A stretch of 64,000 bases of DNA, taken from NCBI GenBank assembly GCA_003024175.1, contig MDYQ01000124.1, positions 17,906 to 81,905 on the forward strand, given 5' to 3'. Origin of the DNA: Planoprotostelium fungivorum. Its lineage: Eukaryota > Evosea > Variosea > Cavosteliida > Cavosteliaceae. The notes beneath the pieces are model-generated. The model was not told where the DNA came from, made no database searches, and saw only the letters and a program-made list of their open reading frames with translations. Of the stretch, positions 6,912-60,965 are shown in pieces. Numbering within the stretch: position 1 is the stretch's first letter; every line of letters begins with the position of its first letter. The translations under genes and the position numbers were made by a program.

Positions 6912-7245
6912 ACTAAAGTATTTACGATAAATGTACCACACGATGAATTGTATTATCATGTCCCTCACATCATTCAGAAGGATTGGACGACTAACCTCTC
7001 ACACAGTACATGATGTGGGATAGAGGTCGATTTCACATGAAGAAAGCCCGAGCGGCGGTGCGAAATAATTCATGACACGATGAAGGTTTATTGTTTTTGG
7101 TCACGCTTCGGACTTCCGAAGGCTGTGCCGCTCGGCGAACTGCATTGTTCCCGCACCATCGCAGAGTGTCAGCGTCTTCTTAGGTCGAGTCCTATTACGA
7201 CACTGGTTCTATCGTTCGCCTAGCTGCTTCGGTGAATGATACCCG
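6912..7245. other. Intergenic region
   Basis: The gap separates two plus-strand genes. It contains a small hairpin (CTTCGGACTTCCGAAG near 7105-7120). No cloverleaf or other RNA gene could be drawn from it. Confidence 0.4.
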
Positions 7246-8890: not shown

Positions 8891-9178
8891 TGGAGAGAGC
8901 TTGAGAGAGGCGTGTATCGAAAAAGTATCGAATGGTGGACATCGTGAGGAAGATAAAGTCGATGACTTTGTGGCACATTTCTTGATGGTTAAGCAGAGCA
9001 TGGAAGTGATAGAACAATGTCCCTGTGTATTGCGTTTTTCTAAATCGATTGAAATTTCTTTTCGAAAAGATCGAGACCACTGGTAGGGGGCGAGCCAAGA
9101 TGTAAATATGGCTAACATGAACACTGCTGATACAACAGTTTGTTTATTGTTGTGTCGTCAGTTCTGTGAAGAAGTGTC
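8891..9178. other. Convergent 3' intergenic region
   Basis: The gap lies between the 3' ends of the transporter (plus) and the ankyrin gene (minus). Short shadow frames only. Confidence 0.4.
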
Positions 9179-10590
9179 TCAAGAATCCACATCCTCATTC
9201 TTTCCCTCTTTACATTTCTTTGCACGCACCAACAGGGCTTTTTCAAGTGATGGAGCCATATCAGGATAAGCTGAGAGGACTGATGGGTCCACACGAGGGC
9301 TATCCAACAGTAGCTCTACCACCAAAAGGTTTCCCCTCTCAGCCGCTGTTCTGAGCGCTTTGTTGTTGTTGATGGAAGGATCTACACGAGAGTCCTGCAA
9401 GAGTGCCTTGATGATGTTGTGGCGCCTTCGGCTGCACGCTGTTATGACGGCCTCGTTGTTGTTGGCTGATGGATCCACGCGAGGGTCGGTCAATAGTAAC
9501 TCCACTGTTGCGACTTGCCCTCCTCTTGCACAAGCGTTTCGAATGGCTTCGTTGTTCCTGGCTGATGGATCCACACGATGATCGGCCAAGAGCATCTCTA
9601 CTGCCTCAACCACCGGTGCTCTGCGAATGGCCTCGTTGTCCTCTGCTGATGGATCCACACGAGAGTGGGCCAATAGAAGACGGATGATATCCAGGTTCCC
9701 CTTGGCACATGCATATCTGATGGCCTCGTTATTTCTTGCTGATGGATCCACACGAGGGTCAGCCAGTAGCATCTCTACCGTTGCGAAATCCCCTGTTACA
9801 GACGCGTTTCGAATGGCTTCGTTGTCTCTAGAAGATGGATCCACACGAGAATCGGCCAGGAGTGCTGCGATGACGCTACATCCTCCCCCAGAGAGAGCGT
9901 ATCTGAGAGCTTCGTTGTTCTTTGCTGACGGATCCACATGCGGGTTTGCTAAGAGCATTCGTATTATACGTGCAACACGACCAAACATGTTGGAATTGAT
10001 CCGTCTGGACATTTCAGACTCTACACGAGACAGACTATCACAAGCTTCTCGAAAGATCTTGTTGTCATCTGCTGATATGTCGACCCTAGGGTGGTCCAGT
10101 AGGACCTGCACAACATCGGGATGCAGATTACTGATGGCTTCTGTGATGGCCCAGTTGTCTTTTTCGGTTGGATCGAGGTGCGGATGAGCCAAGAGCGCTT
10201 CGAACATGTCTCTGGTAGGCAGAGACGATGGTTTCTTGTGCGTATATCTCGAATATAGCTCTATGAATGGGTTTTTGTGGAGCTTGACGGGCAGACTGAC
10301 CAGAAACCGAACTGACTCGAGGTAGCCTTGGTCCGCGGCGAAGATTAGGTCTCGGTGGGACAGGACATCAGTGAAGCCGTCGACTGAAAAGTTTAAAAGA
10401 TGGAGAAAGAAGAAAGGGTGCTGCTCTCACCGATCTCCTTCCATGTCTTGCACGTGCTACGTAAAATGGCAAATCGAGTCCTTCTAGATCTTCTTGCTGC
10501 CGATTTCGATTGTCCCCTGTCTCGCACCAGCATCATCTTCAAGATCTCCCTTGTGACATCGTAACTAGAGATGAGGCCATTGGCAATCAT
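9179..10590 (-). CDS. F-box-like/ankyrin-repeat protein with DPSA-type repeats
   Basis: A degenerate ankyrin array of about ten 34-residue units of the form VEMLLADPRVDPSARNNEAIRNA covers most of the protein. The second exon runs from about 10380 to 9179. The first exon encodes MIANGLISSYDVTREILKMM, then a basic patch and FAILRSTCKTWKEI, which resembles the helical N-terminal F-box-like segment of ankyrin proteins in protists. An intron near 10393 links KEI to VDGFTDVLSHRDLIFAADQG. The ATG at 10590 was chosen because the preceding in-frame sequence is atypical; an upstream start at 10686 is possible. The repeats are unusually uniform at the DNA level (GATGGATCCACACGAG recurs), indicating recent expansion. 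A role as a ubiquitin-ligase adaptor is inference. The gene at 28618 has the same architecture. Confidence 0.78.
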
Positions 10591-32762: not shown

Positions 32763-35352
32763 ATGGCCCAACACGAGACGACATGCAATGGGGAGGTCTT
32801 TCCCATAGAGCTACTACCCTTTGAAATGCAAAATCAGGTATGAGAGATTCACGGACAGAATGATGGATGAGATCTTCATCGTGACGTATTCACGTCCTTT
32901 GTGACGAGCGAATGCATTCAAACCTTATAATTTAATCGTATTATGATACAACATGAGTGAATTTGGATATTGTGGCTCACGCGTCCAGATCATCACGTTC
33001 TTAGATATGAAGAGTCTTATTCGAATATCTATGGCATCTCATTTATGGAGAGAAATGGCTCTCTCAGAGGTTCATTGGCGATCCGCTTACTTTCAAAGAT
33101 GGCATTCTTTTCCTCTACAAGGTTACAATGATAGAACTTGGAAGGAAACATTCAAAACCAGATACAGAGTCGAGCAGGAACTGTTACATGTCCAGTCTGT
33201 GAAAAGTGCGCCATCTCATTTTCGAGCCCGAATGACGATTGACAAAGTTCACAGACATGATACAACCTGTAAATACTCAAACCGTCAACGATCGCACAAC
33301 TGAAACAGGTGAGCTCATTTCACATCTGCTCCTCTCATTCATCATCAGTTGTCACACAAAATAAAACTACCGAGACTACCTCAAAAGGTGTAGACTTTCT
33401 CTTCCATCATCTCATACAGACAACAGATCAAGATGATGGCTCTCAATACACCTTCGAAGTCTTCTTCGCCTTCGGTGATGAGCTGAAGAGGAGAGCCGAG
33501 AACCGAATATCGGCCGTAACAAAAGACAGTGGACCCATGGTGATCCCTTCATGCATCATCATCTCATTCCAACACGTGACACTGTCCAGGAGGAAGAGAA
33601 GAACGAAGTGTCCACGCTCATCGATGGTCTCACCGTGGAATTATTACTCCACATCGCTGCAGAAGAGTATGCCTCTGCTCTTCACCGTCTGAACCGAAGG
33701 AATATCACCGTGATACCAGGCGCCAGTTATCTCTCTTCTCCCGTACTGCAGGTGAAAATGGCAGGTTGTAGATGAACGAAATTCATATTGGCAGGTGGCA
33801 TCTCTTCTATCGAATTTCTCCGTGTCAGAGAACAACGCCGCCGGTCAAACACAAGCGGCTTCTCTATTGAGAACGGGTGACATTTATTCTATTTTATTCT
33901 TCTCACGCGATGCAGGTGTACCCAGCGAGCTCCACCTCAAGTACGCGGACGTATTAGCCACGCTCGCTCGCCTGAAGGAAACAAACCAAGCCAACATGCA
34001 CATCATCCAGAGTCTATTCCTCGAAGCCAGTCACCTCTACAATCGAGCCGCCCAGCCCGGTGAAACCTCCATCTACAACGCTGTAGATTGACTCCCTCAG
34101 GCTTCTACATGCACGAGAACGTCTTACGCTACAGCGGAGACTGCCTCGTCGATCTGTCTCGAAAATATCCATCCGAGAGAGGACAAGAGCTGTTAGAGAG
34201 GGCGTGCAGCAAATACGAGGAGTCCCTCTCTGTCAACCCACAGTATTTCATGGCTCACTATTACTACGGCAGAACACTTCACCTCTTGGCGAACGCGAGG
34301 AAGGGAACACCGACGGCAGACGAGACGTTCGTGAAGGCCATCGAAAAGTTCAAGCAGGCCAGACTCATCAAAGCCGATGACGTGTATCTCATCTATGAAG
34401 ATGCTTCTGTCTTGCAGGATTTCGCGCTGACAAAGAGTGGAAGGGAGGCCGAGGAGCTGTTCAATCGAGCGGCGGAGAGGGTGAGTCGATCTACACCGTT
34501 GTAGACGGCTGAAATGAGTAGTACGAGGAAGCGCATGAGCTGGCGAGAGATGACGCGTGGATCCTGCGAAATTGGGCGGACTCACTGTACGAGCACGTCA
34601 AGCTCATCTTCGCACAGATCGAGGACTGCGAGAGCGAGATGGGCTACGAAGGTGACAGCGACCATCGTGATGGCCATGTCTAAAGACGTATAGAGCAAGA
34701 AGGCGATTGGGGTATGGGTAGATCGGAGGAACTGATGCAGCTCATCAACTTGGCCTGCGAAAAGTACCAGATGGCCGTCAACATCAACAACAACTACACG
34801 AACGCCTTCAACTCGTGGGCTCTCGCCTTGTCTACGAGAGCCAAGATGGGCTGGTCCATCGAGGCATCGAGGTGATGTATCATCCGATATCACATCACAT
34901 GATTCATCCTCTATAGAGATTACTTCCGGGCGGCCTACGAGAAGTTTGAACGAGCCATCGCCACTCGTTCAGACGGCTCCAACATCGAGATCTGCAATTG
35001 GTCTATGACCCTCATATCACAAGCCATCAAAGAGGCCAAGTTCATCCTTCGCAGCCGCGGCCAACCTCTATCGCGTCCGTCGGTCCTCCTCCTCCTCTGT
35101 GAAGACGAAGCATGCCGCTCCCTCCTTCGCATGGCGAAGGCGAAACTGCAGGGCCTCCTCTTAAAGAACGACACGTGGTGCTTCTTCTGCATGGCGAGGT
35201 ACTACGCCGCGAAGGGAAAGGGAGACAAGTGCAGAGAGTGGCTCGAGAGGTGCCATGCGGAGGGTTATCTTAAGAGGGCGACCCGCTGGCAGCTCTCCTA
35301 CTTTGATAACGTCCGCGAGGCCGACTGGTTCAAGCGATGGACTCACCAGTGA
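32763..35352 (+). CDS. F-box and TPR-repeat protein
   Basis: Read as one gene. The start at 32763 (MAQHETTCNGEVFPIELLPF) leads into an F-box: EVFPIELLPFEMQNQ joined over an intron to IITFLDMKSLIRISMASHLW and RSAYFQRW. A middle region YTFEVFFAFGDELKRRAENR is joined by an ideal intron (GTGATCCC..CTGTCCAG, about 33539-33589) to EEEKNEVSTLIDGLTVELLL. The C-terminal half is TPR-like: ELHLKYADVLATLARLK, LEASHLYNRAAQPG, YSGDCLVDLSRKYP, LERACSKYEESLSVNPQYFMAHYYYG, AIEKFKQARLIKADD, AEELFNRAAERYEEA, ACEKYQMAVNINNNYTNAFNSWA and YEKFERAIATRSD. Two introns (34060-34100 and 34481-34521) carry TCTACAACGCTGTAGA and TCTACACCGTTGTAGA. If the join is wrong, a separate TPR gene starts at 33551. An SCF-adaptor role is inferred from the F-box. 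Confidence 0.72.
34072..34087. repeat. TCTACAACGCTGTAGA intronic palindrome
   Basis: A 16-bp imperfect palindrome (6-bp arms TCTACA/TGTAGA) inside a 41-nt intron of the F-box-TPR gene. It belongs to the TCTACAAC/GTTGTAGA family. Confidence 0.8.
34490..34505. repeat. TCTACACCGTTGTAGA intronic palindrome
   Basis: A 16-bp element with the same TCTACA..TGTAGA arms, inside the next-but-few intron (34481-34521) of the same gene. Confidence 0.8.
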
Positions 35353-35825
35353 CACGTCGATAGAGGCCGTGGTCTCTCACCGATAGAGGCGATGGACATC
35401 TGTAAAGACATCCACAGATGTCTCTTTAGGATAAAGAATCTGAGGATGATGTCGGTTGTGCGAAGGTGCGAGATCGATGACATAGATTCTGCGGGGGCTC
35501 AGTGGGAAGCCAAAGAAAGTTGGGCCTCGGGAACACCTGAGGCGGTTTTTTCATTCGCAGGGGTTTAAGAGCTCGCGAGACGATTCTATATCTAAGGAAA
35601 GTAGACGAGAGGCGCAGACAGCGGGGAGCATTCCATTCAGAGGACGGAGAGAGCAGCGGGTATACTGTCTTTGTCTTTGTATCACAACGAGAGAACGCTA
35701 CAGTCTGTAGACACTGAGGGTCAGTTTCAATCAGACGCACACGCATATCATCCTTCGACCTCAATCGGTGGAAGCCCATCCAATTTTCCATTAGAACATC
35801 ACAACCCATCCACACAACACGAGCC
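35353..35825. other. Intergenic region
   Basis: The gap separates two plus-strand genes. A 140-codon minus-strand frame occurs but has no domain and strongly mixed composition. The 3' part is presumably the promoter of the UBL-AN1 gene. Confidence 0.4.
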
Positions 35826-37053
35826 ATGTTCGTCAAGTATGGTAGCAAGAAGATAGAAGTTCAGATTACCCCAGAGTTAACCGTAGACCAACTGAAGAAC
35901 GAGATTGAGAGGATAGAGGGAATGCCGATGCTAGAGCAGCGTCTCATTCACGGGGGGAAGCAATTACTTCAGGGTCAACAAACACTCTCGGGGTGTAACA
36001 TCTCAGAGGACTCCACATTGCTTCTTCTGCATCAAACCAACTCAACACGGAACATCACACTGTATGTAAGAACTATCCAGAGAGAGCTCGATTTCAAGTT
36101 ATCGGTCTCCCTCTCCGACACCATTGGAAGCATCCGATCCTCAATCAACGAGAGGGTCAGTCTCCCAGACACTTACAGTCTTGTATATAATGGCATCGTC
36201 CTCACGGATAACCAAACCGTGCTGGACTATGGACTCCGCGAACGTTCTTCTGTATATATCGTCACACAGATCGTCATGGTAAGTGATTATTCTGCTATCC
36301 TCCATATATCATATTAATGTTTCATAGGAGGTAGAGAATTTAACGGGGGAGAGAGTTAAGATGAGAATCAACGACAACCGAATCACGGGGGAAGTCGTGG
36401 AGCGCCTCGTCGAACAACGCAGGGCCGTCAAGAAGAGGAAGCATGCCATGCGAGAGGAGAGAAGGAGCGCCGCTTCATCCACCACCACCACTCAGACGAC
36501 CACAACAACCACCGACTCTGATCCGTCCATGTTTTCTGGTCTGCGCCGAGGCTTCTTAAATGCAGCCGGGCCAAGAAAGAGATCGAAGACATCTGTAGAG
36601 TCTGCACCCTCTGCCCCTCCCACATCATGCGCAGCCGCAGCCGCCGTGACTGAGACAACCGTCACATCCTCTTCGTGCGGAGGTCCATTAGACACCCTCA
36701 GCTCGTCTACCCCCATGCCCAAGATCATCTCGCAGCCACCGACCACCACCGAGATGGAGTCCACCATCATATCGTCCATGCCATCATCTCCCGTGATGGT
36801 CCAGTCCATCGTGGACGTCCAGACCATCGTCTCCCCTTCATCTCCCCTCGTCCGTGGAGACCGCTGCTTCCAGTGCTCAAAGAGGGTGGGCCTCACCGGC
36901 ATCAAGTGTCGCTGTTCGAAACAATTTTGTGGTGCTCACCGCTATCCTGAAGAGCACAAGTGCAACTTCGATTATAAGACAGAGAACAAGAACCAATTGA
37001 CTAAGGCCAACCCCAAGGTGGAGGCCCCCAAGATACAACACATCGGCAAATAA
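35826..37053 (+). CDS. Ubiquitin-like and AN1 zinc-finger protein (ZFAND-like)
   Basis: From MFVKYGSKKIEVQITPELTV the protein has two tandem ubiquitin-like domains: residues 1-75 (TVDQLKNEIERIEGMPMLEQ, RLIHGGKQLLQGQQTL, STLLLLHQ) and about 78-155 (LYVRTIQRELDFKLSVSLSD, TYSLVYNGIVLTDNQTVLDY). Neither ends in the processed Gly-Gly of ubiquitin. A long Thr/Ser/Pro-rich linker follows, then a C-terminal AN1 zinc finger: CFQCSKRVGLTGIKCRCSKQ, FCGAHRYPEEHKC, with the full Cys/His ligand set. One intron lies near 36278-36328. UBL-AN1 proteins such as ZFAND4 interact with ubiquitin or proteasome/p97 pathways; the role here is inferred from that. The double UBL is less usual than a single one. Confidence 0.88.
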
Positions 37054-41877: not shown

Positions 41878-44738
41878 ATGGAATCTGACGCGATCAACTC
41901 TATTGTTGAACACTGGAAGAGTGCGTTGTGAACATGCATCATTCGTTCTCATATGATGTCAGAGATCAATCTCGATGGACGAAGGGGAGAGTTGGATTCT
42001 CAAGCGGCTGAAATCGCTTCTGGTAAAGAGGCCAACGCAGTGATTCGAAAGAAATTAGCCGAACAGACAAGAGGTATGAGGCATCTCGTACGTCATACAT
42101 ATACGTCCATCTTCTTTTCATGCGAGCGAAGAGACGGAATCCCTGATGATATCGTTGCACAGATTTCCGTAAGACATCAGATGAGGAGAAAGTCAAGAGC
42201 TTCGGTGTCCTCTTGAAGGCATATCAAGAGGAAATCGATCGATTGACAAAGAAGAGTAAATTCGCAGAGCACTCATTCTTATCCGTCTATCAAGTTTTGG
42301 CCGAAGCGCCCGACCCGTCGAAAGGCCTCTCCGCGTTACAAGTGACCCTCACCATCTCCATATGACATCCATCATCACCATTCCAAGTTCGAATCATTCA
42401 CATTGTGCAGGAAGAAACACATCGATCGGGCAAGATCGTCGACTTAGAGAGCGAAAACAGAAAGTTGAGAGCCGAATTGGACAGTTTCAAGCGCGAGTTC
42501 TCGGGAGTCAAGAACCAAGAGGTCACCATCCGCGCATTAGAAGATCAGCTCAACGAATACAAGCAACAGGTATCTACAACGTTGTAGATCGTCGCAAAAC
42601 ATTGAAACGCGACAGACCGAGGCAGTTATATCCGAGAGGATCAAAGGAAGCGAGAGACAAGTTGCAGAAGAGAGACAGAAGACGATCGATGCGATGAATG
42701 AGAGGTGCGATGATGATCATGAGTACGTCATCTGAAAATTTCCAGAGAACAAGAGACGAGGCGAGCACTTCAGGCGAGTCAAGAAGAGACAGCCAGGCTA
42801 CAGAGGTCACTCGACACGGTGCAGAACGAGTACGACGACCTCAGATCACGATTCGGTGAGAGATTTGATGACGTGGCGTGACGTCATCGATGAATCTTCT
42901 GACTCGTTGTAGAGGAGAAGACGGGGGATAGACAGAGCGAGATGGACATGTTGGTGCAAGAGGTGGAGGAGAACAGGCACAGGATCGCACAATTATTGAG
43001 AGAGAAGGTGGATGTCGTCTACAACTCGTCCACACTGAAAGAACGACAGGAGATATTGAGCAGTGGTGTCGTCGCTACATCAAGGTATCGTCCTCTCGAT
43101 TTTATTCTATTTTATTGTTTAGAGCGTCTCACGGTGGACACAGAGACGGATCTTCCCCTGATTTAGAATTAGAATTGGCGAAGAAAGATATCGAATTGTC
43201 TCAGCTGCGTGATCACACGAAGAACGTAGAGAAGACTCTATCATCGGAGAGGAACACGTCACAAGCCGAGCTATTGAACAGACAGACACGTATCGAGTCC
43301 CAGGTCAGTCATTTTTTTCACATCCATAGAGGATTAAAATTGCACAGGAGAAGCAGATTCATGCTTACGAGGAAGACTTGAAGACCAGGCCGACACAGCA
43401 AGAGTACGTCAAATTGAAGAGACAACTGCAAGTGTTGAAGGTATGACGAGTCGTGACGTCATCACTGACTCGTTGTAGAAAGCCACAGAAAATGCCGACG
43501 ATAATGAAATCGACCCCGATGAAGAGCTTCCTTCCCTCGAGAAAATCTTCAAGGAGAAAAACAAGAAATTGGAGACCGAGAACATGAGAGCGAAGGTTTG
43601 GAGGTCACGTGATCTCTACAGTCTGACGTGTACAGGCCACAGTGCAGACATTAGAGGAACAAGTGTCCACCCTGCGTAACAAATTGGCCGAGACCGAGGC
43701 GAATGAGACGAGGCTCAAACAATTGGTCCACAAGCTGGAAGAAGATATATCGCACGGTTCGAATTCGAGCGAAATTTCGGGGCAGATTTCCGTTGTAGAG
43801 GAGATCATGCAGCAGCCTGCCGTGGTGAGGAGATTTCGCGTGGATTTCGCGTGGAGTTGACGGAGTACAGGGGAGGAAGGTGTCGGAGGATAATACGGTG
43901 CTGCAGGTGGTGACGAACCAGAGAGATCGATTCAGAGGAAGGATCAGAGATTTAGAAGAGGTGACATCATCACATCATCACATCATCACATCATCACATC
44001 ATCACATCATCACATCATCACATCATCACATCGTCACATCACAGCATCATCCGTCCACCATCACATCATCACATCACTTGGAAGACATCACACCGAACGT
44101 CAACTCATCCACACAACTGAAACGACATCAGGAGACGAAAGGATTACATTCAAAGATGCAACAGAGAGAACAAGAGATCGACACCTTACGAACAGACAAC
44201 GTCAAATTGTACGAGAGAATCAGATACCTCCAGAGCTACAGCAATTCATCTTCCGGGGCCAATCGAAGGGTGAGATAGACACGGTACACGGCGTGTGATA
44301 CGTAACAGGGCGGCATGATCGATATAGAAGCGGGTAAGACGGATTTAGATGCAAAGTATTCTCCACTGTACGAAGATTCGGTCAATCCATTCACATTGTT
44401 CAATCGAAAGGTGAGACGATCGCGATCGTGTCGATGGTGCGATGATGTGATGACGATCGATCCGTGTGATGTCTATATGGACGTCGATGCGATCGTCATC
44501 ATCGTAACATCATCGTCTTAACGATGCTGATGATGATGAACAGGAGAAGTACCAGAGATACAAAGACTTGAACCCAGCAGAGAAGGTGATTCTCAACGGA
44601 GGCCAGTTTCTATTGTCGAACAAAGTGACGAGAACCTTCCTCTTCTTCTATTCGGTCCTCTTGCACCTCCTCGTCTTCATTTCCCTGTACAGAGCCGCCA
44701 CCACCTCCGCAAACACAACCGTTGTAGAACACCAATAG
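41878..44738 (+). CDS. Golgi golgin CASP (CUX1-derived type)
   Basis: A coiled-coil, tail-anchored golgin. The start at 41878 (MESDAINSIVEHWK) leads across an intron to EINLDGRRGELDSQAAEIAS and KEANAVIRKKLAEQTR, the conserved CASP N-terminus. Long coiled coils follow (RKLRAELDSFKREFSGVKN-like segments, ERQVAEERQKTIDAMNER, LELAKKDIELSQLRDH, QTLEEQVSTLRNKLAETEAN). The CASP C-terminal signature is present: VVTNQRDRFRGRIRDLEE, LRTDNVKLYERIRYLQSY, NPFTLFNRK, then EKYQRYKDLNPAEKVILNGG and the membrane anchor RTFLFFYSVLLHLLVFISLY with a short lumenal tail. CASP proteins act in retrograde Golgi tethering. One intron contains an 18-bp perfect palindrome and another a microsatellite. Confidence 0.92.
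42571..42588. repeat. ATCTACAACGTTGTAGAT intronic palindrome
   Basis: Perfect 18-bp palindrome immediately after the GT donor of a 46-nt intron of the CASP gene. It is the best example of the family also found in introns of the F-box-TPR, channel, MRF-type and ATAD2-like genes. Confidence 0.9.
43964..44060. repeat. CATCATCA microsatellite in a CASP intron
   Basis: About eight tandem copies of the 8-bp unit CATCATCA, decaying rightwards, within a ~168-nt intron that joins RDLEE to ETKGLHSKMQQ. Confidence 0.85.
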
Positions 44739-44994: not shown

Positions 44995-45370
44995 TTATGT
45001 AACATGTAACACTGGTTTGATGTGTAAATACTGTTCAGCGTCTGGACTTGGCAAACTCCTCCAAGCTTCTCCTCTGTCATTTGGATCAGAACATGCTTCT
45101 AATCTTCGACGTACCTCGATATCGGCTGCAGAGAGCTGATCGTCACTCCTCTTCGAATAGTTGGGGTCCTGCTTGTTGAGGTACTCTTCGGGCTGTTCCT
45201 CTCCCTCCTTTCCCCATCCTTTCAATCCTTCTGCAGAGAACATCAGTCTACGTCTATATACATTGTGATCGGGCTTATGCATTTCGAGCTATGAGAGATC
45301 CTCTCTCACCCTTCTTTGGGAGTCCACGTAGTCCACTTCCGCTGTGACGTTCGAATTCTCTTCCGGGCAT
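44995..45370 (-). CDS. Small charged hypothetical protein
   Basis: Two exons, about 98 residues. MPGREFERHSGSGLRGLPKK joins across an intron (about 45225-45309) to EGLKGWGKEGEEQPEEYLNK, then QDPNYSKRSDDQLSAADIEV and a C-terminus ending HIKPVLHVT. The RHSGSG..LPKK..GKGWG-type segment resembles short motifs seen in hyaluronan/mRNA-binding-family and PDCD4-like proteins, but the match is too short to name a family. No signal or membrane segment. Probably soluble and disordered. Confidence 0.6.
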
Positions 45371-45622
45371 GTTGTTGTTGGTGTGTTGCTTGTTTGTGTG
45401 TTGTGTTGAAATGGAATTTGTAATAGGAAATTGATCCGGCAATTTGACATTTTTAGACCTGATGTCCTCCAACTTGTAATGACACAACGGTACAAAACTG
45501 GAGGACTTATTTTGGTTGTCCTTATGTTGTGTCGACACAGGAACAGCATCATGCACCCTATGACGTTCCAACTCAGACGCTTCTTCGTCTACTGCGAAGG
45601 CATGATGATGATATCGAGTGAT

Positions 45623-48600
45623 TTATTGTTCTGTGGACTCGATCTTGATGGCCGCCAGGGCATCCAATCGTCTCTGCATCTCTGCGTTCCTCTGTTTCTG
45701 CTTCTGCGACTCTTCATCGTACATGTTCTTCAACGTGATGAAGTTCTGTTGGGCGGCGGTGTTCTGTTCCTGCATGATGGACAACACTTGGTTCAGACGA
45801 CTTTGGAACTCCATCTCTTGTTTCTTTAAGAGTTCTCTCTGTTTCGTAGCCATGTATCTCAAGTTTTCGAGGTCTTTCTTGTGAGGGTCTTGCACATCTT
45901 GAGTCACCTGCCACGTCTTTAGAGATGATCAAGTGAGATGGTGATGACAAACCTGTGAGTGCTTTGACTTCTCTTGTCTCAACTTGTTCTGTTCGATAGA
46001 CCTCTCTCTTAACTCTTCCATACTCATGGATATCATCTCCGTGTCGCTGTTTCCATCACCTGCGTTCGTTAGACATCATGATGTGCACGTTGTTTAGACA
46101 TCCACCTGCTTCCAGTCTCTCTCGTGCATCTTTGATGTATCTCAGAGCCTTCTCATAGTACTGTCCAAATGCAGATCCCTCGATGAGCTTCTCTAATGCA
46201 TCGATCCAATCACCGGATTCTAATGACTCCGAGTAGAGCTGCGTGATGTCCAATTCCCATCTGTGCTTATCGTCTTCACTCAGATCTTCGTAGAGTCCAC
46301 TGAGAACGGCGATAAACTTTAGACATCATCAGATGCAGGTGCAGATGGGATCTCACCATGTTCATGAGAACGATGCTGATGAAGCCGACGAAGAGGAGGA
46401 AGAAGAGGGTTCCAAAGATACCACCACTGTTATACATGTCTTCGTACTGCCCCTCTCCCAAGATGGTGCGGATGGAGGAGATGATGGAGTCTCCGAATGT
46501 CTTCATGCCGTCTATATTTCCTCCGAAGGCGAGATGGTGAGCGGCAGAGAACATAATCAGCACGTACAAGAAGAAAGCCAAGAAGATCATGAAAGCCCGA
46601 TCCGATAATGTCTGTCTCATTCGTCAATCACACGACGATGATGATGTGATGTCTGATGTCGCACGTGGATGATAGAGGATGTGACTGGGCCCGTGAACGG
46701 AAGGATCTTGAAGTATTTTAGACCTCTCAGAGCTGCCATGAGAACGAAGAAGGCGAGCAGATTGGAAGAGAACCTCTGGATATCCATGATCTCTCCGTAT
46801 TCGACATAGTTGTCGGTAGAGGGGTCAAAATGCATGAAACGATGGCTGATGTCACAGAAAGCTTGTAGAGCACAGATGAAACTGAAGATGACGATCATGC
46901 TGACCTGTTTGAGATCAGATGATGGAATCAGATGATGAGATCGTCATGATGATGTACTTCGTAATAGTTCCAGAATTGGAGGAGGTAGCTACGACCGAGA
47001 GATAACATCTGTCATCATGATCAGTGATCGACATTGATGCAACGTTCATCACCTCGGATGCTTCGGTGTAGACGAAAGCGAATAAGAAGTAGATGATGAC
47101 AAAGACTTCAGCAACAAAGACGGCCTGCTCGAATGTCATCATCATCATCATGACAACTCTTACCTTTCCGGTCCAGCTAGCATATCTCTCGCCTCGTTGT
47201 AGATGGATCGTCGTCTTTCTCAGAGGATTCGCCGCCGCGGTGAATTCGACCGACATGGTCACCGTCGCAATGGTGTTCAGGTTCACGTTCCATCTACAAT
47301 GAGTCAGTCCCAAACCCGTCTCAATTCTACCCACAGAGTGAACGTAGCCGTCAGCAGTCGAGTCTGCTCGTCGATCCACTTGTCTTCCTTCAGTCCATCC
47401 AATTTCTCCGGCCATTTTTCCGGGTCAGGTGAGATGACTTCAGAATATCCCCCTTGTACACGTCAGCTTCAAGTCACGTGACGTCACGTGACGTCATCAT
47501 CACCGTCTGGGAAGAGCTGGCCGGACGGAGAAACGGAAGAATGTCCTCTATCACTCCAAGAGAAGCGTTGGTTGGGCCCGTAACTCTCTCGCGTCTCGTC
47601 AAAGTGTGCAGCGTAGCAACTACTCTTCCGTCAATCTACAAACGTGTAGATGAACCCCACCGCTTGAACTGTTGATTGAGGTCCGTTGGAATGGTACAAT
47701 AATCGTCGGTCACCCTCGCCTGAGTGTCTTCAGCTCCATCTACAACCCGCCACCTCCTCACCTGTCGGAGTAGAACTGCACCCAATAGATGTACTCCCCT
47801 ACCGTGATCGTTCGTATGGTTTGAATCGTACCAATCGTTGCTGTTTGCGTAGGGTAAGAGAGTCTGAGAAGTCCAATCGTACCAGTCGTCCACGGTAGAG
47901 ATGGATTGCCACTGTTCGTTGTCGAGAGAAGATGTGATACCGTCGTGGAACCAGAACTGCTGTGGAGAATTTCCACCGTTGCTCATGAAAGCGACTGGAG
48001 GGATGAGTTGTAGATGGATGATGACGTCATACCCGTCATGAGAATGGCCAGCCAGAGGAAGTAGGGTATACCTTGTGCTGCAAAATATCTGGTAGATGTC
48101 AGTGAAATTTCATCGAATGAAGATACCTAAGGGCGAATAAGAGACGGAATGAATTCATTCGATCCATGCATAGGTCGTGTAGTTCGTCTGTCTTGTCAAA
48201 TAATTCCTTTGCTTCTTTGATTTCTTCTTTCTTCGTCACTTCATCTTTCTCTTCGTTCAGTTCTCTCTGAGATAGGGTCAGATGGTCAAGCGTCTCGTTG
48301 GCTTTGGATGCGGAGGATGGAAGAGTCAAGAGGACGATGACGATCGTGATGATGTCTGATGATGATGACGGTGATCGTGATGATCGCGATCATGTGTCGA
48401 GTGATCATCGTGATGAATGAGATGAAATCCCACCATCCAGTGACTGTTTGACAATATGAGACGATCGTAAGCACTTCTACCCTCTCCATCTTTCACTTGC
48501 AGATCCGTCTGTAGACGCATCGAATCTACCGTGACGAGAGCCTGGGCGCAAGCCAGTCTGTCGCAGTAGTGTTCGTGATCTACAATGCATGAGTGTGATG

Positions 48601-51600
48601 TCACAATGACAAAATGACGTCACCAGTACGGTCATCGGGGTAACGTAACCATGGGTGAGAGGGTCTATCCCTGGTATCGGCAGAGACGTGTACAACCTGA
48701 TGAGATGTCAATTTTCTCCGAGTTTTCATCGAGTTCTACCAGAGGTTTCGCACTACCGATGATACCACCCTCGCGTTTCACCACGGAATCGTCCTGCCCC
48801 AGTCAATCTCACGAATGTCGACTACCCCATCGTCGACACCTCGTCGCCCGTGGCGGGAAGCTCCAGAGCCACGTGGAGTGCAGTCCTTCCTCTGTGGTCC
48901 AGCGTGTTCACTTTGCATTCGACCGACAGCAACCATTCTAAACCTCTAACGTGCCCCTCCCTCGCCGCGTGATGCAAGAGTGTCTGACCGTTACGATCGA
49001 CGACCTGTGATGACGTCATCACTACAGATCGTGACGTCACGTGACGTCACACCTTGAGCGGGTTGTTTGTGATGATGGCGGGGGCTGTCTTACCCTTCTC
49101 TACTTCTTCTGTGGAATCTCTTCTCATGTAAAGTGTGTGGAACAGTCGAATGACACCGAGGCGATTGTCTCTGTTCAGAAATGTCGACGAGACAATTTCC
49201 ACGAAATTTGCGCGGGCGGTCATGCCGATAGAGTGCATCTGATGTCGTTGAGACGTCTCGATGGATGGATGCGATGTCGTACCTTCTCGAAGAATTCTGT
49301 GTCCTCTATGTATGCCTTCCATCTCAAAAATGCGAGTTCGTACTGGTCGACTGATTGGGATGTTGTGGCAGGAAGAGAATGCATGCCTATCACGAGTGCG
49401 TCAGATACGAAATCTCCACGAGTTTTCACCTATCCTGGGATTGGCCAACATTTCGAGGAAATCCCATTGTTCGGACATGAGAGCGATCGAATAGGCTGAT
49501 TGTGTGTTTCCATCGCAACGGAAGAAGACTTCAGTTCCATACAAATGAATGACGTGCTCTGCTTGTACCATCATATTGAAAGTGGCCAAATAACTACACA
49601 ATCCATCACTTGCACATCCACACGAAACGTTCGACTCGAAATTTGAGACTCACCGGGTCACGTGACCGATATTGGGACGGATCGTCTTCTCATTGTGTTC
49701 GATCCACGACGAAGAGATTAATTCACCGAGCCAATCGGGCAAGTTATCGCCTAAGAACGTGGGGAAGATGTCACCGTTGGACATGAGCCATCCTCCCTCT
49801 GACATGGCCCACGATGATCCCGCCCTTCCCATGAAACGTACCTGTACGTAAGTGAACGGAGATCTCGACGAGTTTTCACCGACTTTTCTGGACGGACCGC
49901 GAGATTTGGGTATCATCTCCATGTCGCCCGACTTCTTTGCTCCCCAGAAGCATTGAGGTGAGTATGATATCTTATCGTATCCGGGAGACGTCATACAGAG
50001 GGGTACATCGTTCACCGAGCCCACCTACGTCTCATCAGATGACATCACGATGTGATATCTTCACTTTGGACGGGTACATCATGATTTGGTTGTCCAACGC
50101 GACGACAACTGAACTTCCCTCGGGCGATTCTGTGATGTAACGGAAAGGATTATTTAATTTGACTCGCAAAGTTTGACTACCTGATAGAGTGTGAGGTGAT
50201 GACGTCACGTGACGTCATAGAGAAATATCACCGGTGTTGAGGTCGTAGCGACATAAGATGAGGGTGGAGGCCACCCAGACTTGACCGTTCGACACTGCCA
50301 TCGAGCTGAAGGGTGGTCATCATCATCATCGGGATCATCGATAGCGTCATGGTCGTGATGATCGGAGTGGCGATGATGTGATGAGATGATGGGTGATGGT
50401 GATGATGTCTTCTTACCTGTCACACTCATCCTTTGGTAGTTCGGCCACATGAATCGACCACAACTGAGTCCAATTCTATCTTATCTTCAATGTCTCTCCT
50501 CTCCGTCGACATTCTTCACCTGCGTCGACCAACAGGCCACCGTATCATCTACACCCCTTGCTACCAAATGACTCGCGCTGGCCGAAATATCCACGATATC
50601 CACGCCATATTTCAACTCCTCCGCCAGAGTAAACCCACGTACCTACAACATCACCATTTGGCAGGTTGTAGACGATCATCACCCTCCATATCTTGATGAC
50701 ACCACCCTTGAAAGCACCGTAGATCTTGTCGTTGTACGTGTGCAAGACTCCAGTGAAATCCACGCCAGATTGCCTGCGTGCAATGGTATTGAAACCTCTC
50801 AATATCAACTCCTTCGTTTCGTGATACCACACGATGGCTTTCTCGTCGACGCAGCCCAAGACGCGAGTCGCAGGATCTGCGAACGTCCTGCGAACGGTTG
50901 AGATGAAGCGGAGATCTCGTGGAAAAGTGACCCACTTGGAGCCGATTGTACGCAGGTCATAACAGCGGAGGTATTTGTCTTCACACAACACGACTAATTG
51001 CTCTCGGATGGCATCATATACCATCTTGACGGGCGAGCATTTGAAATCTTGAATGTGAACGAACCTCATGTCTTTGTACCTGTGTCGACGTTCAGTTTCG
51101 TGTCGACGCGGGACGATCTACAACGAGACGTACCTTGGCCTCTGAAGGAAGACGATGATGGATGTCTTTGTACCGACAAAGAGGTAATTGGAAGATATGG
51201 CGGTGCACTGTGTCTCTGTGTTTTCTAATTTGTAAGGGACGTGTCTGCCGCTCTCTAATTGCGTGGCCACGCTGCCGAATCGATTGGCACACACGAAGAG
51301 TTTGTCAGAGACACAGTCATCTACAACGCGTCAGGAGGGTGAGAAGTCGATGAGATTTCACCTCCCCTCCTCTCCTTCTTGGGTTGGGAGTCCCATTTGA
51401 CTTGTACGGGATTTTTCTCCGGATTTTCGTTGATCTTTCCGTCTTTGAATAGATAGGCGTAGAGCGGGCTGGTTGTGATCGAAGTGACCAGACCCTTCTG
51501 ATGTGGTGACCATATGACGTACAGCTGGTGACAATCTTTCAGTGGAAGGTATGGCGGGAAACCACACCTGATCCCTGTACAAGTTGAGGAATCCGATATC

Positions 51601-54016
51601 GTACTGAACGAGCGGCTGTTTCAATTCTTTGGGCATCTTGAGTGTGGTGACGATTTGAAGAGGAGCAATCAAGCTGATGACGACTATCTCTTGTCGATTG
51701 ACATCTGCATACAAACACTTCCTCTTGTCATCGTACAGTAAAAACCTGTCACACTTGATCACGTGATACGAGCGGATCTACAACAATGTAGACGGGACTT
51801 ACCTTCCGTCCGAGGCCAGTTTGACGTCACCTTCCTTCGAAAAAGAATCGTTCACCTTTTTTCATTCGATGAGTATTCACAAAAACATTTCTACTCACAC
51901 TCCTCTTGTATATCGTGACGTGAAATTTGGTTCTGACAAATAAATGGTCTTCGCTGACGTCCCACACGTCCGAATCGGTAGGTACAGCGTGATGGTGATG
52001 TCCTCCCCAACTGTACATCTGAACGCCTGAGAAGCCACGTCAATCTACAACGAAGCGGCTCAAAATTTCGTGACGATCTACAACTCACCCGTCGACGTCC
52101 TGACCCAGGCACCGTGTGACGTTACCCTCAAGAGGGGACCCTTCGATTTGATCTTGAATTCTACAACGGGGCAAGTTGCAGATATCTCGTAGAAGAGTCA
52201 AAGAGAGAAATAAAAGAAAATAAATTCTGTGGCTTACCATGGCATTTCGACCGCCACACAGAGTTGTGAGGGCAGCTTTCGTCTTACTACTCGTTGTAGA
52301 TGGTGGTTTGGGAGTAGCTGGCTTGTGTTGGTGAGTGGTCAACATACCGTGATGATTGACGAGGATCGTGTTGAGGTCTAAAGTATTGCGACTGCCATCC
52401 TCCGAAGTCAAGCTGGAAGAATAAATCGAAATAAAATCGATTTTCGGGAATATCACCAGAGTAGAGTTCCCTCCAACGAGAGTTGCTTCTTCTCGTCTCG
52501 AGCGACTTTCGATAGAGTCGGTTGTTTACTCAATCTGGAGGGTCCACTGTCTCTCATGTTCAGACCGGACAGCTTCAGAGTCCCATTCGAAGCAGTGACG
52601 ATGCCACTGAGATCGATCGTGGATCGATTGAATGTCTTTCCATCTGATTCAGATTCAGTTCTCTGATTTGATATGGTCGAGCACCTCCAGTATCGCACAG
52701 AGCAGATAGCTCCCACGATTTGAGCTCCAATTTCTGGCATTCGGACAGGGGAAGAGGCGGGAAACTACTTTTGGGACTGATCTTACCGCCTACCCGTCTC
52801 AATGTTCATTTACAACTCGCCACGATCACCTTCCATGACGGTGCCCGCTGCCAGGTAGGCTCTCGCTGCCACCCAAGTGTTTGTCTTCTCCCTGTACAAG
52901 TCCGCATAGATGAACTGGCTATCTATCCGTACGTAACGAGACGTACGCGTGAACCCGCTACCTGATGACGTCATCTTATGCATCGAAATCCCATCGAAAT
53001 ATCCACCTCCCCAATCGAATTGACCATCGTTGTTACCCAGCAACGTGTCCAGATCAACTGTCGAAGTGTGGACTTCACCTTCATCGTTGTATCTGTCGAC
53101 GTTTTAGAACGCGTCGACAAGTGTGACTCACTTGTAGACGAGAGAAGAGGGCCAGTCGAGCTTGAGGGAGAAGTCTGAAAGCTGCGATTCGCTTCGTAAT
53201 AGTTGCGCTCTACCCTTTACACCGCTGGCCACGTCGGGCTCGCTGTCACTGTTCTCTTCCACTTTGGCGCTCTGTGACATCGTTTTAGAAGAAGGTGATG
53301 ACAGATGATGGGACGGTGACACCTTCTCCTTTCTGGCTTCGGGGAGGAGGATGAGGTTGCCATCGATGGAGATGATGCTGTGGGGTAGAGAGATACTGCT
53401 CTGTTTATAACCACACAATCCTCCGAAGAGATTGGCCTCCAAGATCAGTCCTGCACGTTTTGTTCACATTGCGTTCTCATCAATGTACCAATGCAATGGC
53501 TTCCTCACCCGTAGGATTGAGCCTGATCTGTTCGGCTCTCTCAGAGAATCCTTTACCACCATGGACGAAAGATCCTCGATTGTTGCCAAAGACCTGATCG
53601 AGATCGAGTGTGGCAGTGATTGTACTACCATCGGGCATAGGACATTCTGCGTTCAGAATAGTCGGTCTCTCTGGATCTAATTGGACCTGATTTCCTGACG
53701 TCAGATGGAACATACGGTGGTGATTCGAGATGATTACCTTCGAGCATTGAAGAAGGCTGACTTCTCCAGGCATAGACGTCGGCTCCATGTTGTTGTTGTC
53801 CTCTACCACCCGAAGATAATAGACCAACTCGTGTCAAACTACACAACTTCAATGAAAGAGAGGTTATGTCCCACATCCATAGATCTACCGGCCCGGTAGT
53901 GGCATCCCTATCCCTCTTGTCCCCTGACTTCTTGAACTTCATTCACCTAGCGTGCTCGATGCACATTGATTTGTAACTCCTTTGCGCACGATTTGAACAG
54001 CCATCGTAGCCATCAT
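45623..54016 (-). CDS. Lectin (CVNH)-propeller-ankyrin-polycystin channel fusion
   Basis: A continuous series of minus-strand exons over 8.4 kb with short introns and no internal gene boundary. N-terminal part (about 53950-52080): repeated cyanovirin-N-homology signatures, such as ILNAECPMPDGSTITATLDL with DQVFGNNRGSF, STVDLDTLLGNNDGQFDWGG, SECQKLELKSWELSALCDTG and NTLDLNTILVNHHGML. Next (about 52020-50050): WD/beta-propeller-like strands, including VWDVSEDHLFVRTKFHVTIY, KLFVCANRFGSVATQLESGR and CYDLRTIGSKWVTFPRDLRF. Then ankyrin repeats (NGQTLLHHAAREGHVRGLEW; HRGRTALHVAL; EGRSAYDRLILSNSHW). The C-terminal third is polycystin-like: ALRGLKYFKILPFTGPV, pore region TFGDSIISSIRTILGEGQYE, FLLFVGFISIVLMNM, FIAVLSGLYEDL, then a coiled coil (QRELLKKQEMEFQSRLNQVL). 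A Ca2+-permeable TRPP-type channel is likely. The start at 54014-54016 is provisional; splitting into two or three genes is the main alternative. Confidence 0.72.
47479..47496. repeat. TGACGTCACGTGACGTCA palindrome, copy 2
   Basis: Exact 18-bp palindrome within an intron of the channel fusion gene, preceded by another CACGTGACG half. Confidence 0.9.
47634..47651. repeat. ATCTACA..TGTAGAT intronic palindrome
   Basis: 7-bp perfect arms around AACG inside a ~36-nt intron of the channel gene. Same family as 42571-42588. Confidence 0.75.
49032..49049. repeat. TGACGTCACGTGACGTCA palindrome, copy 3
   Basis: Exact copy in an ankyrin-region intron of the channel gene. The same intron also has TGATGACGTCATCA near 49007-49020. 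Confidence 0.9.
50200..50217. repeat. TGACGTCACGTGACGTCA palindrome, copy 4
   Basis: Exact copy in a propeller-region intron of the channel gene. Confidence 0.9.
51777..51792. repeat. TCTACA..TGTAGA intronic palindrome
   Basis: 6-bp perfect arms around ACAA within an intron of the channel gene. Confidence 0.75.
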
Positions 54017-54303
54017 CTGTCGGAACAGTGAGTGACGTGTAAGATGAAGCAATATAAAGATGAATGTATTGGTCCTGAATCAGACACACTCGGTCGATGT
54101 CAATATATATAACAACCTTCGCAGTTCCTAAAAGAAGGAAAATGAAATAAAATATCGGAACTCTTTTTCGATGGAAATTTCAAAACATTTCGACCATTCA
54201 CTGATCAGCGGGGCTTCATCGACGAAGGTGATGCATCTTCTTAAATCTCGATATCTCATACACCCCATCCAAAGACTACTTCAACTCAAACATCTCTTTA
54301 CAG
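54017..54303. promoter_or_regulatory. Divergent promoter region
   Basis: About 290 bp between the channel gene (minus) and the Ser-rich gene (plus). It contains an A/T-rich AATATAAAGATG stretch and TCAATATATATAACAACC. Promoter function is inferred from position. Confidence 0.45.
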
Positions 54304-56759: not shown

Positions 56760-56921
56760 AGGTGAAGAGACAACTATCTCTCATCATACACTGTGCAGCT
56801 CGTGACGCTCTACCGGGAATCAACACAAAATAAATCCAATTTTTTACAATTTCGATCATTTATCGACTCTGCCCCTGCGAAAACTTTTCTGTGACAAACT
56901 TTTTCATCTCCTGCGTTCTCT

Positions 56922-59900
56922 TCAATATCGAAGAGGAGAGATAGAAGATATCACCCTGCACTGCACTGACTTGTCTGAATGGCCTCGATAGCGGTGGACG
57001 ATCTTCATCATGTCCGCATGCAGGCAGATGAGCTCTTCGATGGAATGATCCGCACTACAACGCGCCACTCTCTCCACGTAAGAGGTCATCTTGACGCGGT
57101 CGTATTTGATGGAAACCTCATGATCTTCGTCTAAGCCGGAGCCATCGTCCTCGATCACCTCTGACTGCATGATGTCATCACACTCATCAGATATCATATG
57201 ATTGTGCGATATGTTCTATCTATTCGATATTCACCTCTTGTCGTTGTGGTCTCTGGACCGTTGTAGACTGTCGAATTTCAGTGAGATTTCTCGATGACGT
57301 CATCACCTCGATTTTTCCGCGATCTTCCGTAATTCCGTTGTTTTCTTCCGATTTTCCCTCTTCTTTCTTCTCCCTGGCGATCTTCTTACATCTCTCATCG
57401 ATCGTTGGGTTCAACGTGTGCAGCATGGCTAGCACGATGTCTCTCAATGCCTTTGCCTGAGATATCTCAGCGACATCCACCGTCCCAAATTCACTTTTCC
57501 CGCCAATTTGTTCTTCGCGCCACCGAGCAGGTGGGAGTTTTCTCGTACGTCGTTCAACATCTTGTCGACATCTGCGATGAATTCTTCGGTCGACAAATAA
57601 TAGTCCGCGTCGATCCGTTCAGCGATGACGTTCATGTCCAAAGGGTGTTCCACCGCATCGTAAAAAGCGGGAAACTGTTCTCGGCTCTGGCGGGTTCAAT
57701 TCCGTTTGGCTCGTTGTAGATGTGACTCACCAGTGGTTTGTAAAAGAAGGTGTAGTGCCTCTCCCTCTGGATGACGCGGATGACATCACGTAAGAAGATT
57801 CTCAATTCTCTCAGGTAGTGTGTGTCTTCTCGCTCTTTCTCTGCCTTCTGTTCGTGCGTTGTAGTGCGGGGGATGATCGGAGCTTTCGGAAGTTCCGGGT
57901 AAACTTTCTTCCGGCCGAAGGAGGGGGAGACGTACTTACCCCCCTCGTCGATGATGTCGGAGAAATAGTTCTTCCGAGCGATCTGCAACGCGTCAGATGG
58001 TCACGTGATTTATCACTCACCTCGCTCGGGGGTAGAACGTCGGTCACGTGACTCTCCTGCCACCGGAACAATTTCTTCAACTCGGGCGTCAATTCTTCCG
58101 ACGGTCGGTCCGTTGTAGATAGAACTAATACCGGTAATTCCGCCTCCACGTCAGACATGACATTCTCAAAGGTGGAGCGTAACTGGAGCGTACACAGATC
58201 CCACCAGGAGTCCAAATGGGGTAGAAAGATGACAGACGGTACTTTTCGTAGAGCTTCGCGAAATGCAGAGACAAAGGCTTCCTCTACGGACTGTACGTCG
58301 AAATGAGTGAAAAGCGGTGGGTGAAAGGGTGATGGAGGTAGCGGAAAGATTCGCACTCACCCTCGCGGTCGTATGGGAGACGAGCTCGGACATATCGATG
58401 CAAGTGACGGGAAATTGTTCTAATCGGTGGAGGAGTGCGGCGGCGACGTTCGTCTGTCCCATGCCAGGTTGACCCGTGATCACCATGCGAGGACGAAATA
58501 TCGTCGACTTTTCCACGGATTTTCCACCGGAGAATAAGGTCTCTCCCGGGCGTAACGTACGCAAGGCATCCGACGTAGAGATACGTACCGGAAAAATGTG
58601 ATCCAGGCGGGAGAACATATCTTCGATCTGTCTCTATTCAGAAATTCCACATGGATTTCACCTCACCTGTCCCTGTAACAGTATCGACAGGCCACGGTCC
58701 AGCGGTCGTGCGTACAGTACGGCGGCACGGTGTGCCGTGGGAACGATATCTCCCATGGCCAGATCGAAATCTTGGCGGTCAACAGTCAACTTGCTTACGT
58801 CGATGAGTAACTTGTCCTTCGAGTTGTAGATCTGTGGATAGGTCCGACGTAATGTACGTAAGGCCGCCTCCGATGCAAGAGCCTTCAGATCTGCCCCACA
58901 ATATCCCACGCACAGATCGGCGATTTCCTGATATTCATATTGGCAGGTTGTAGATGGACGATGACGTCATCACCTTGACCATGGCGCTCTCCAATGGAGG
59001 CTTCCACTCCTTCGTGTGAATTCCGAGAATTTTCCTCCGATCCTCCCTGGTAGGTAACCCGAAGAGGAATTCACTACCCTCATCAACGTCGACGTCGACG
59101 AAATTTCCGCGAAATATCTCACCGGTCGAATCGGCCGGGTCGCCTCAGGGCGGGATCGATGGCATCAATTCGGTTGGTTGCACCCACAACCATCACGTGA
59201 CCTCTGCTGTCTAAACCATCCATGAGGGCTAAGAGGGTAGACACGAGGGAGGAATGGACTTGGTCTTGTCTAGAAGATCGAACGGGTGCGAGCCCGTCGA
59301 TCTCGTCGAAGAAAATGATGGCGGGTTGTAGCTCGTGGGCTCTCTGGAAGAGGAGGCGTAACTGACGCTCGGCTTCGCCGACCCACTTGGACAGACAGTC
59401 GGCGCCTGTAAAGTTTTGGCGGGAAAAAATGGCGGGAAACCACCTTTTCGCATGAAGAAGGCTACGGGCTGGGCCGCCGTCGAGCACATGTTGGCCAGAG
59501 CCCTCGCAACTAACGTCTTACCCGTCCCTGGGGGCCCATAGAACAACACCCCCCTCGGTGGCGTAACTTGAAATCTCTCGTAAACTTCCGGGTACAACAG
59601 TGGAAACGCAATCATCTCCTGTCATCGTGTCACTCCGTGACGTCACGTGACGTCATCACCTTCAGCTGCTGGATGTGTTGGTCTAATCCTCCCACAGAGT
59701 CCCACGTTACGCTGGGATCGATACTCATAGGATCAACGTCGGCCTTGTCTTTTGCATCAGCCTTGCGGTTGATAGGCTGGGGCATGCCTAATTTTAGCTT
59801 CGAAGCAGTGTGGGGAGATAAGAGGTCGAAGAGGTCATCGTCGGAGGAATCTTTGCCGCGGCGGGGTTTCGATTTGAAGAGTTTTCGGGGGGAGGCTTGA

Positions 59901-60965
59901 ATGCTGGGAGAGTGAGGGGGCGAGAATATTTGAGACGCTCGTCGTCGTGATGATGAGGATCGTGATGAGTTCGAATGATGATGATCGATCGGGTGATCGC
60001 GATGATCGATTGTCCATCGTGACGACGATGTGGAAGACTTCATGATGACTCGACGCACCCCAGTCGTTCGATCGATGTCTTCTTCCTAGCGCTCCTCCTC
60101 TCTTTCGGTTCTTCCTTCCTCTTCCTCGCTCGAAATCGAGTCTTGGGTCCTTCTACAACGACCTCTTCTTCCTCTTCGATCTCTTCTTCGGCCAAGGTGG
60201 CGTCGTTACTCACCTGCCATCTTTAGAGGGTGTCCTTTCGTTTTGAAAGAGAAATCACCTCTGGTGTGAAGTCGTTCGAGATGTCATCGACGAGATCGTC
60301 GTCTCGCGTATCGTCATCGCGAGAGATGGCATCTTCATCGTCTGACCTCTCGTTGATCTCCTCTTTGTCTTCGTCGTCGCTGTTGTTCTCCTGGATGAGA
60401 TCAACGCGGGAGACGATGAGACATGATGATCACCTCGTCACTGGATAGAACTTCTACGTATCTGGGCTTCTTCTCTTGTCTTACGAGTGTATCGTTCGAA
60501 CCCCAAGAGCGTAGACTGTATCTTGATTTGGTCACCTTTGACTTTCTCGTGCGTAATATTCTCTGTGATATGGGTGAGATCGTAACAAAAGAATTACAGG
60601 GGGAGGATGGTGCGAGAAAAGAGATAGAGAGAAGCAGATGGAATGCAGATGGAAGATGATAATGTGATGTAATTACATCTGAGTGAGGGTTGTCAGAAGA
60701 TCGTCTCTTTCGTTTGACTACCGTGTATCTCGTCTGACTTGGATTAGACATCATCGTCTGCAACAATCCATCCCACCTCTTCCTCGGAAGATGAATCGAA
60801 ATCGTCTCCACGATCCGACCTCCCACTCCTCTCTATCGACAGACGTACAGAACGCTTCGGCCTCTCGTGCACGTGATGATCAAGTCCAGAATCTTCTTCA
60901 CTGATACATTCATCATCATCGCCATCATCTGTGGGACTCTTTGCATTCCTCTCCCTTAGATTCAT
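56922..60965 (-). CDS. Bromodomain AAA ATPase (ATAD2/Yta7-like)
   Basis: A chromatin-associated histone-handling AAA+ protein. An acidic and basic N-terminus ([20 protein letters not shown] from 60965) leads to [20 protein letters not shown], then the first AAA module: Walker [29 protein letters not shown] (Walker B), [20 protein letters not shown] with the arginine finger region. A second, degenerate AAA module has [15 protein letters not shown], where the Walker A Lys is Gln. After YFSDII comes a bromodomain-like helical segment ([56 protein letters not shown]) and a C-terminal helical domain ([20 protein letters not shown]). Joining the first exon requires removing 16 nt (60734-60749); otherwise the start is at 60754. 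Introns carry the TGACGTCACGTGACGTCA palindrome and TCTACAACCTGCCAA. Confidence 0.87.
59638..59655. repeat. TGACGTCACGTGACGTCA palindrome, copy 5
   Basis: Exact copy in an ATAD2-like intron between the N-terminal region and the first AAA module. Confidence 0.9.

Follow-up and report, generated by a model that had tools for sequence, protein, structure and literature searches.

How polycystin channels are opened has long been unclear. For human polycystin-2 no gating ligand was known as of 2016 according to the accessible part of PMC5312093, which also reports that Dictyostelium polycystin-2/TrpP is required for the calcium response to ATP. For polycystin-1, as far as the available portion of PMC7728438 goes, an extracellular C-type lectin domain is described as essential to activating the complex, perhaps by way of TOP-domain glycans, and the lectin-bearing N-terminus was reported as an agonist in 2020. 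Here we describe a gene model from Planoprotostelium fungivorum in which three CVNH domains precede a polycystin-type channel. The gene lies on the minus strand of a stretch of 64,000 nucleotides (positions 17,906 to 81,905 of contig MDYQ01000124.1; G000:C61:17906-81905), which is called the window below and to which all coordinates refer unless a contig is named; the genome searched was the 36.9-Mb assembly with its 471 contigs. A natural fusion of a polycystin channel with a candidate ligand-binding array would be a testable system for channel opening, and five paralogues that have no such array would serve as natural controls.

Domain composition of the predicted protein

In the spliced-frame model the gene runs from position 53788 to 45623, with a 5' end that may reach up to 54016, and comprises 39 exons coding for 2056 amino acids. 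The domains and their order can be read directly from the continuous frame of this model; all features named in the following lie on the minus strand.

The protein begins with three CVNH domains. Domain 1 (53353..53698, exons 1-2) matches the Pfam profile PF08881 with 51.1 bits (E 2.5e-13) over profile positions 4-101 of 102 and the solved structure PDB 2kjl with E 7.1e-11, and it retains GNN.G, a motif seen in solved CVNH lectins. Domain 2 (52837..53214, exons 2-3) reaches 32.1 bits, and domain 3 (52334..52754, exons 4-6) 37.0 bits over profile positions 4-102, with a match to PDB 5k79 at E 7.8e-5. Each of the three individually exceeds the curated Pfam cut-off of 24.5 bits, and combined they score 108.6 bits (E 3.1e-31). 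Thus chance CVNH motifs are excluded as an explanation. The closest solved relatives of the array in PDB are CVNH lectins. These scores bear out an initial annotation of this locus, made from the DNA letters, which had proposed CVNH-type repeats that should score above threshold; the three motifs it quoted for them and the channel motif FIAVLSGLYEDL are all present in minus-strand open reading frames.

The C-terminal part was recognised as a polycystin channel by several profiles. The first membrane segment and the polycystin (TOP) domain occupy 47164..48088; Polycystin_dom (PF20519) matches there with E 2.2e-19 and 70.2 bits (cut-off 23.6), and hydropathy places this domain between the first two membrane segments. 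The channel proper, with the pore (TILGEGQYEDM) and FIAVLSGLYEDL, follows at 46206..47124 and matches PKD_channel (PF08016) with E 7.1e-21 and 75.1 bits (cut-off 22.4). The Ion_trans profile is over its cut-off as well. Most of the channel, about 430-480 residues, could be aligned with PKD2L1 (E 4.4e-32) and polycystin-2 (E 2.1e-31). A charged C-terminal tail that appears coiled-coil-like by eye extends to the stop codon (45623..46059). Judged by sequence, the protein would be a polycystin-type (TRPP) channel, and by homology it would conduct cations as a tetramer. The domains typical of polycystin-1, namely C-type lectin, REJ and GPS/GAIN, gave no Pfam match when three parts of the protein were scanned with a limit of E 1.

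Three further parts lie between the CVNH array and the channel. The ankyrin stretch (48434..49004) contains an Ank_2 match of 31.1 bits (cut-off 27.3); Ank_4, Ank and Ank_3 are also over their cut-offs and Ank_5 is under. These Pfam matches fall in about the first third of the stretch, the remainder of which was delimited by alignment with the paralogues. Hence the ankyrin repeats and the polycystin channel of the initial annotation are both confirmed at the Pfam cut-offs. Upstream of the ankyrin stretch is an unnamed linker (49053..49745) in common with the paralogues; hhalign against three of them gave a probability of 95.0 (E 3.8e-8) for residues about 1005-1183. The propeller-like region (49746..52152, residues about 444-1037) is the weakest domain call of the protein. 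Four Pfam matches with E values of 0.014-0.051 were found, three of them to named propeller families and the fourth to PQQ_2/BamB, which we take to be a propeller family too. RACK1 matched with E 0.0084, and a profile of three paralogue N-termini with E 0.02, where the best of 200 shuffles gave 0.83. For the propeller-like strands seen initially there are thus matches to propeller families, none of the Pfam ones over its cut-off.

Paralogous channel genes

The channel part of the focal protein matches five further genes in the genome, one each on contigs C131, C65 and C359 and two on C434 (loci L048-L052). All five have a predicted start; L050 and L051 are complete, and L048, L049 and L052 are cut at the 3' end by the boundary of the locus. 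Polycystin_dom and PKD_channel are over cut-off in every one of them. Ankyrin profiles are over cut-off in L048 only and under cut-off in L049 and L050; in L051 and L052 none was found up to E 0.001, the stretch being recognised by alignment alone. For the propeller profiles, L048 (E 1.7e-8), L049 (E 4.7e-13) and, weakly, L050 (0.0031) have matches of which none is over cut-off, and none was detected in L051 and L052 up to E 0.01.

Identity between the focal protein and the paralogues is 32-41% in the TOP domain and membrane part, 22-27% in the ankyrin stretch, 14-27% in the linker and 11-18% in the propeller-like part. A profile built from the five paralogues covers focal residues 1038-1992 as a single stretch (E 1.9e-226, against 0.07 for the best of 100 shuffles). 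In all six proteins, therefore, a colinear block is formed by linker, ankyrin stretch and channel.

No CVNH domain was found in the paralogues, with limits of E 0.01 for the N-terminal parts and E 0.001 for the channel parts. Before the ankyrin stretch their predicted proteins have 639-785 residues, as compared with 776 residues in the region of the focal protein that follows the array (444-1219), and hence there is no room for a further CVNH array in them. The alignment of the focal protein with the paralogues was started at residue 444, so that it is the predicted starts and the Pfam scans that indicate the lack of a part preceding the propeller. Exon-by-exon searches of the genome, which diverged copies could escape, located CVNH in one place only, with all five exon matches at the focal gene. 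CVNH as a genome-wide family was not seen in these searches. As neither the five paralogues nor the rest of the genome have a detected CVNH domain, these comparisons are most simply explained if the array was added to one member of an existing six-member channel family. Alternatively, the array may have been lost from the other members.

Two other PKD_channel loci exist, on contigs C9 and C25 (6138-9291 of locus L053 and 6247-9434 of locus L054). The predicted piece of L053 has PKD_channel and Ion_trans matches and no Polycystin_dom up to E 0.001. Both genes are presumably mucolipin-like, judging by a reading of their sequences, and they were not counted in the family.

L051 (G000:C434:274515-279986) and L052 (G000:C434:87601-92597) are very similar to each other; they face opposite ways on their contig, with about 180 kb between them. 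In L051 the predicted protein contains an X flanked on both sides by a repeated piece, perhaps an assembly fault. Weak genome matches were also seen to the pore end of the focal protein (C158:163047-163178; 45%, E 4.6e-4) and to its ankyrin stretch (C44:54718-54879; 44%, E 3.4e-4).

Gene model

For the model, the minus strand was read from the ATG at 53788 to the stop at 45623 and GT-AG introns of 38-167 bases were removed, which leaves an uninterrupted frame. The model used initially for comparison had 38 exons and 37 introns; an extra intron at 47761-47720 (42 bases), called by the gene finder described below and hinted at by the paralogue alignment, led to the version with 39 exons. If left unspliced, all but two of its 38 introns would break the frame or bring in an in-frame stop. 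Numerous short GT-AG introns are a feature of the genes in the window and the other stretches studied, and mark the DNA as eukaryotic. Several introns of the focal gene are rich in ATGATG and GTGACGTCA, and tandem GATGATGT-type repeats were seen at 43960-44090.

The 5' end is uncertain, with three candidate start sites. Besides 53788 these are 53942, which is the gene finder's own preferred start, and 54016, the beginning of a possible alternative first exon (MMATMAVQIVRKGVTNQCASSTL..; 53947..54016) that joins in frame to 53802 with splice-matrix scores of 6.3 for the donor and 2.1 for the acceptor. An upstream end at 54016, as proposed initially, would be consistent with this exon.

The gene structure was also predicted with a purpose-written two-strand gene finder that uses codon usage, splice matrices and intron lengths. 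It was trained on the window and seven 10-kb stretches, a small set of 19,813 codons and 343 introns. Predicted genes overlapping 45400-54100 were excluded from the counts for codons, splice sites and intron lengths; the background base counts could include uncovered bases of 45400-54100, and the seven stretches contain the paralogues. The finder returned a single gene, 45623-53942. It reproduced 32 of the 37 introns of the comparison model exactly, called 5 differently and added 14. As a gene model, the continuous minus-strand exon series encoding one fusion that had been claimed for this locus is thereby borne out.

Proposed function and alternatives

We tentatively propose, at somewhat less than even chance, that a single gene encodes a polycystin-type channel whose gained cytosolic CVNH head binds a ligand and thereby places or gates the channel. 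The core of the family would consist of linker, ankyrin stretch, TOP domain and six-helix pore, preceded by the propeller-like region, and the focal member would have acquired three CVNH domains at its N-terminus. By homology to polycystin-2 the subunits would assemble as a tetramer, with the TOP domain outside the cell or in an organelle lumen and the entire N-terminus in the cytosol. Up to twelve CVNH domains could then form a multivalent cytosolic binding head. Our guess is that its ligand would most plausibly be an oligomannose-like glycan exposed by breakage of an endosome or phagosome; misfolded glycoproteins leaving the endoplasmic reticulum might be another source. Binding could, again as a guess, place or gate the channel via the propeller-like and ankyrin parts. 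The initial annotation had suggested that one protein might link glycan recognition with ion flux; the fusion in this reading is supported as a gene model, and the coupling is conjecture. If true, this would be a lectin-type domain working intracellularly while attached to an ion channel. The most specific form of the proposal, a glycan-gated channel in which the cytosolic CVNH head sees exposed oligomannose and opens or recruits the channel so that membrane damage becomes a calcium signal, is unlikely in our view.

Several observations weigh against the proposal. The splice at the junction of the CVNH and propeller-like parts is unsure. The second half of CVNH domain 2 is diverged, so that this domain matches the profile only at positions 24-76 of 102, and domain 3 matches the solved CVNH protein 5k79 mainly over its first half. 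The array scores 75 bits (E 6.2e-21) with the NCBIfam mannose-binding lectin equivalog NF052356, the curated cut-off of which is 80. The propeller is weak in the focal protein and undetected in two of the five paralogues. Finally, a single hydropathy window above 1.3 precedes residue 1416 (residues 545-563, 1.73); it is located inside the propeller-like region and may be a buried strand.

What looks like a fusion could be two or more adjacent genes on the same strand, one coding for a CVNH protein and another for a propeller-ankyrin-polycystin channel. The predicted paralogues, which have no CVNH part, would fit this, as would the close packing of genes here (the smallest predicted same-strand gap is 102 bases) and the weak acceptor (score 1.1) of the junction intron 52237-52153, at which the finder picked a different acceptor. 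However, the intergenic posterior does not exceed e^-9.4 across 51600-53000, nor e^-6.7 (about 0.0012, reached at 50475) anywhere in 45700-53700. Breaks were forced at 14 positions, each at a cost of between 9.9 and 24.2 log units (10 to 24 for ten positions in 51800-52600). In the model the last CVNH exon is followed by another exon after just 85 bases. Nor does the finder seem prone to fusing genes, since elsewhere it kept predicted same-strand neighbours, whose separateness is assumed, apart by 102 to 915 bases in 11 cases, and in L054 it divided what is probably a single channel gene. Separate genes are thus disfavoured by the gene finder, including a division near 49.5-50 kb or 52 kb, which the initial annotation had named as the places to look for one, and we consider this explanation quite improbable. 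At the level of the gene model the locus probably encodes a single fused protein. Given one protein, the array could still face outwards, if a 5' exon with a signal peptide was missed. The uncertain 5' end with its three possible starts leaves space for such an exon. Yet by hydropathy the start at 53788 is followed by no hydrophobic leader, 0.58 being the highest value among the first 60 windows of 19 residues, and by reading no hydrophobic leader follows the starts at 53942 and 54016 either. The hydropathy scan of the 2056-residue model has the membrane segments of the channel begin at residue 1416. Ankyrin and WD-type domains are normally cytosolic. Because hydropathy shows neither a leader nor a convincing membrane segment ahead of the channel, and because the propeller-like and ankyrin parts come in between, the CVNH array is probably cytosolic by polycystin-2 topology. 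This likely topology speaks against extracellular glycan sensing, and any glycan should be seen from the inside of the cell. An outward-facing array therefore appears very unlikely, even though PMC7728438 reports channel activation by such an extracellular domain, the C-type lectin of polycystin-1.

The same single gene could instead carry CVNH domains that no longer bind sugar and act in the cytosol as a protein-binding or spacer scaffold. This is possible, if doubtful as it stands, and a non-lectin scaffold is nearly as likely as a glycan-binding head. It would account for the divergence of domains 2 and 3 and for the missed cut-off of the mannose-lectin equivalog, and it would suit the likely cytosolic placement, as N-glycans are normally absent from the cytosol. 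On the other hand, domain 1 spans nearly the whole CVNH profile and keeps GNN.G, and all three domains have remained over the Pfam cut-off, which argues for the ligand-binding head that we tentatively prefer. The CVNH lectins as nearest solved relatives and the score with NF052356, only just below its cut-off, also speak for such a head.

Neighbouring genes

A small downstream neighbour on the minus strand (45035-45370) has a weak match to HABP4/PAI-RBP1 (mRNA-binding) of 20.7 bits, where the cut-off is 21.8. On the plus strand, 33055-37053 codes for a predicted protein in which TPR-like repeats, two ubiquitin-like stretches and a C-terminal zinc finger were recognised by eye. A predicted AAA-ATPase with an end that looks bromodomain-like by eye is located at 56860-60965 on the minus strand; it presumably resembles ATAD2/Yta7.

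Comparison with known systems

With polycystin-2 and PKD2L1 the focal protein has in common the TOP domain and the six-helix pore. To our knowledge these channels have no CVNH, propeller-like or linker parts. The filter-like motif also differs, being LGE in the focal protein and LGD in the aligned PKD2L1. By sequence the solved CVNH proteins (PDB 2kjl, 2l2f, 2jzl, 5k79) are CVNH like the focal array, but they are chains of 108-114 residues or, in the case of 2l9y, a CVNH-LysM protein, and not channels; the focal protein is a channel fusion.

The initial annotation knew of no described architecture like this one. In the literature searched (titles and the starts of abstracts, with subscription papers mostly outside, so that examples may exist) neither a fusion of CVNH with a polycystin or another channel nor a propeller-ankyrin-polycystin family was found. 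That view holds for the combination of CVNH with a polycystin, whereas the order of linker, ankyrin stretch and channel is common to the five paralogues. Dictyostelium polycystin-2/TrpP is likewise an amoeba polycystin, which according to the accessible part of PMC11012017 has a coiled-coil tail and crosses the membrane with six segments; the main text of PMC11012017 contains neither 'ankyrin' nor 'WD40', and that of PMC5312093 does not contain 'ankyrin'. In oomycetes, the PKDRR proteins carry lineage-specific extra domains on polycystin channels, as the focal protein does. These additions are ryanodine-receptor-type R domains, and CVNH is not mentioned in the abstract and section 2.2 of PMC7399828. 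A lectin on a polycystin is not in itself new, given the reported action of the extracellular lectin domain of polycystin-1 on the channel. In the part of PMC7728438 available, the polycystin-1 family (PC-1, PC-1L3) resembles the focal protein in having a lectin-type domain on a polycystin protein; there, however, the domain is a C-type lectin instead of CVNH, is extracellular and is accompanied by leucine-rich, PKD, REJ and GAIN parts.

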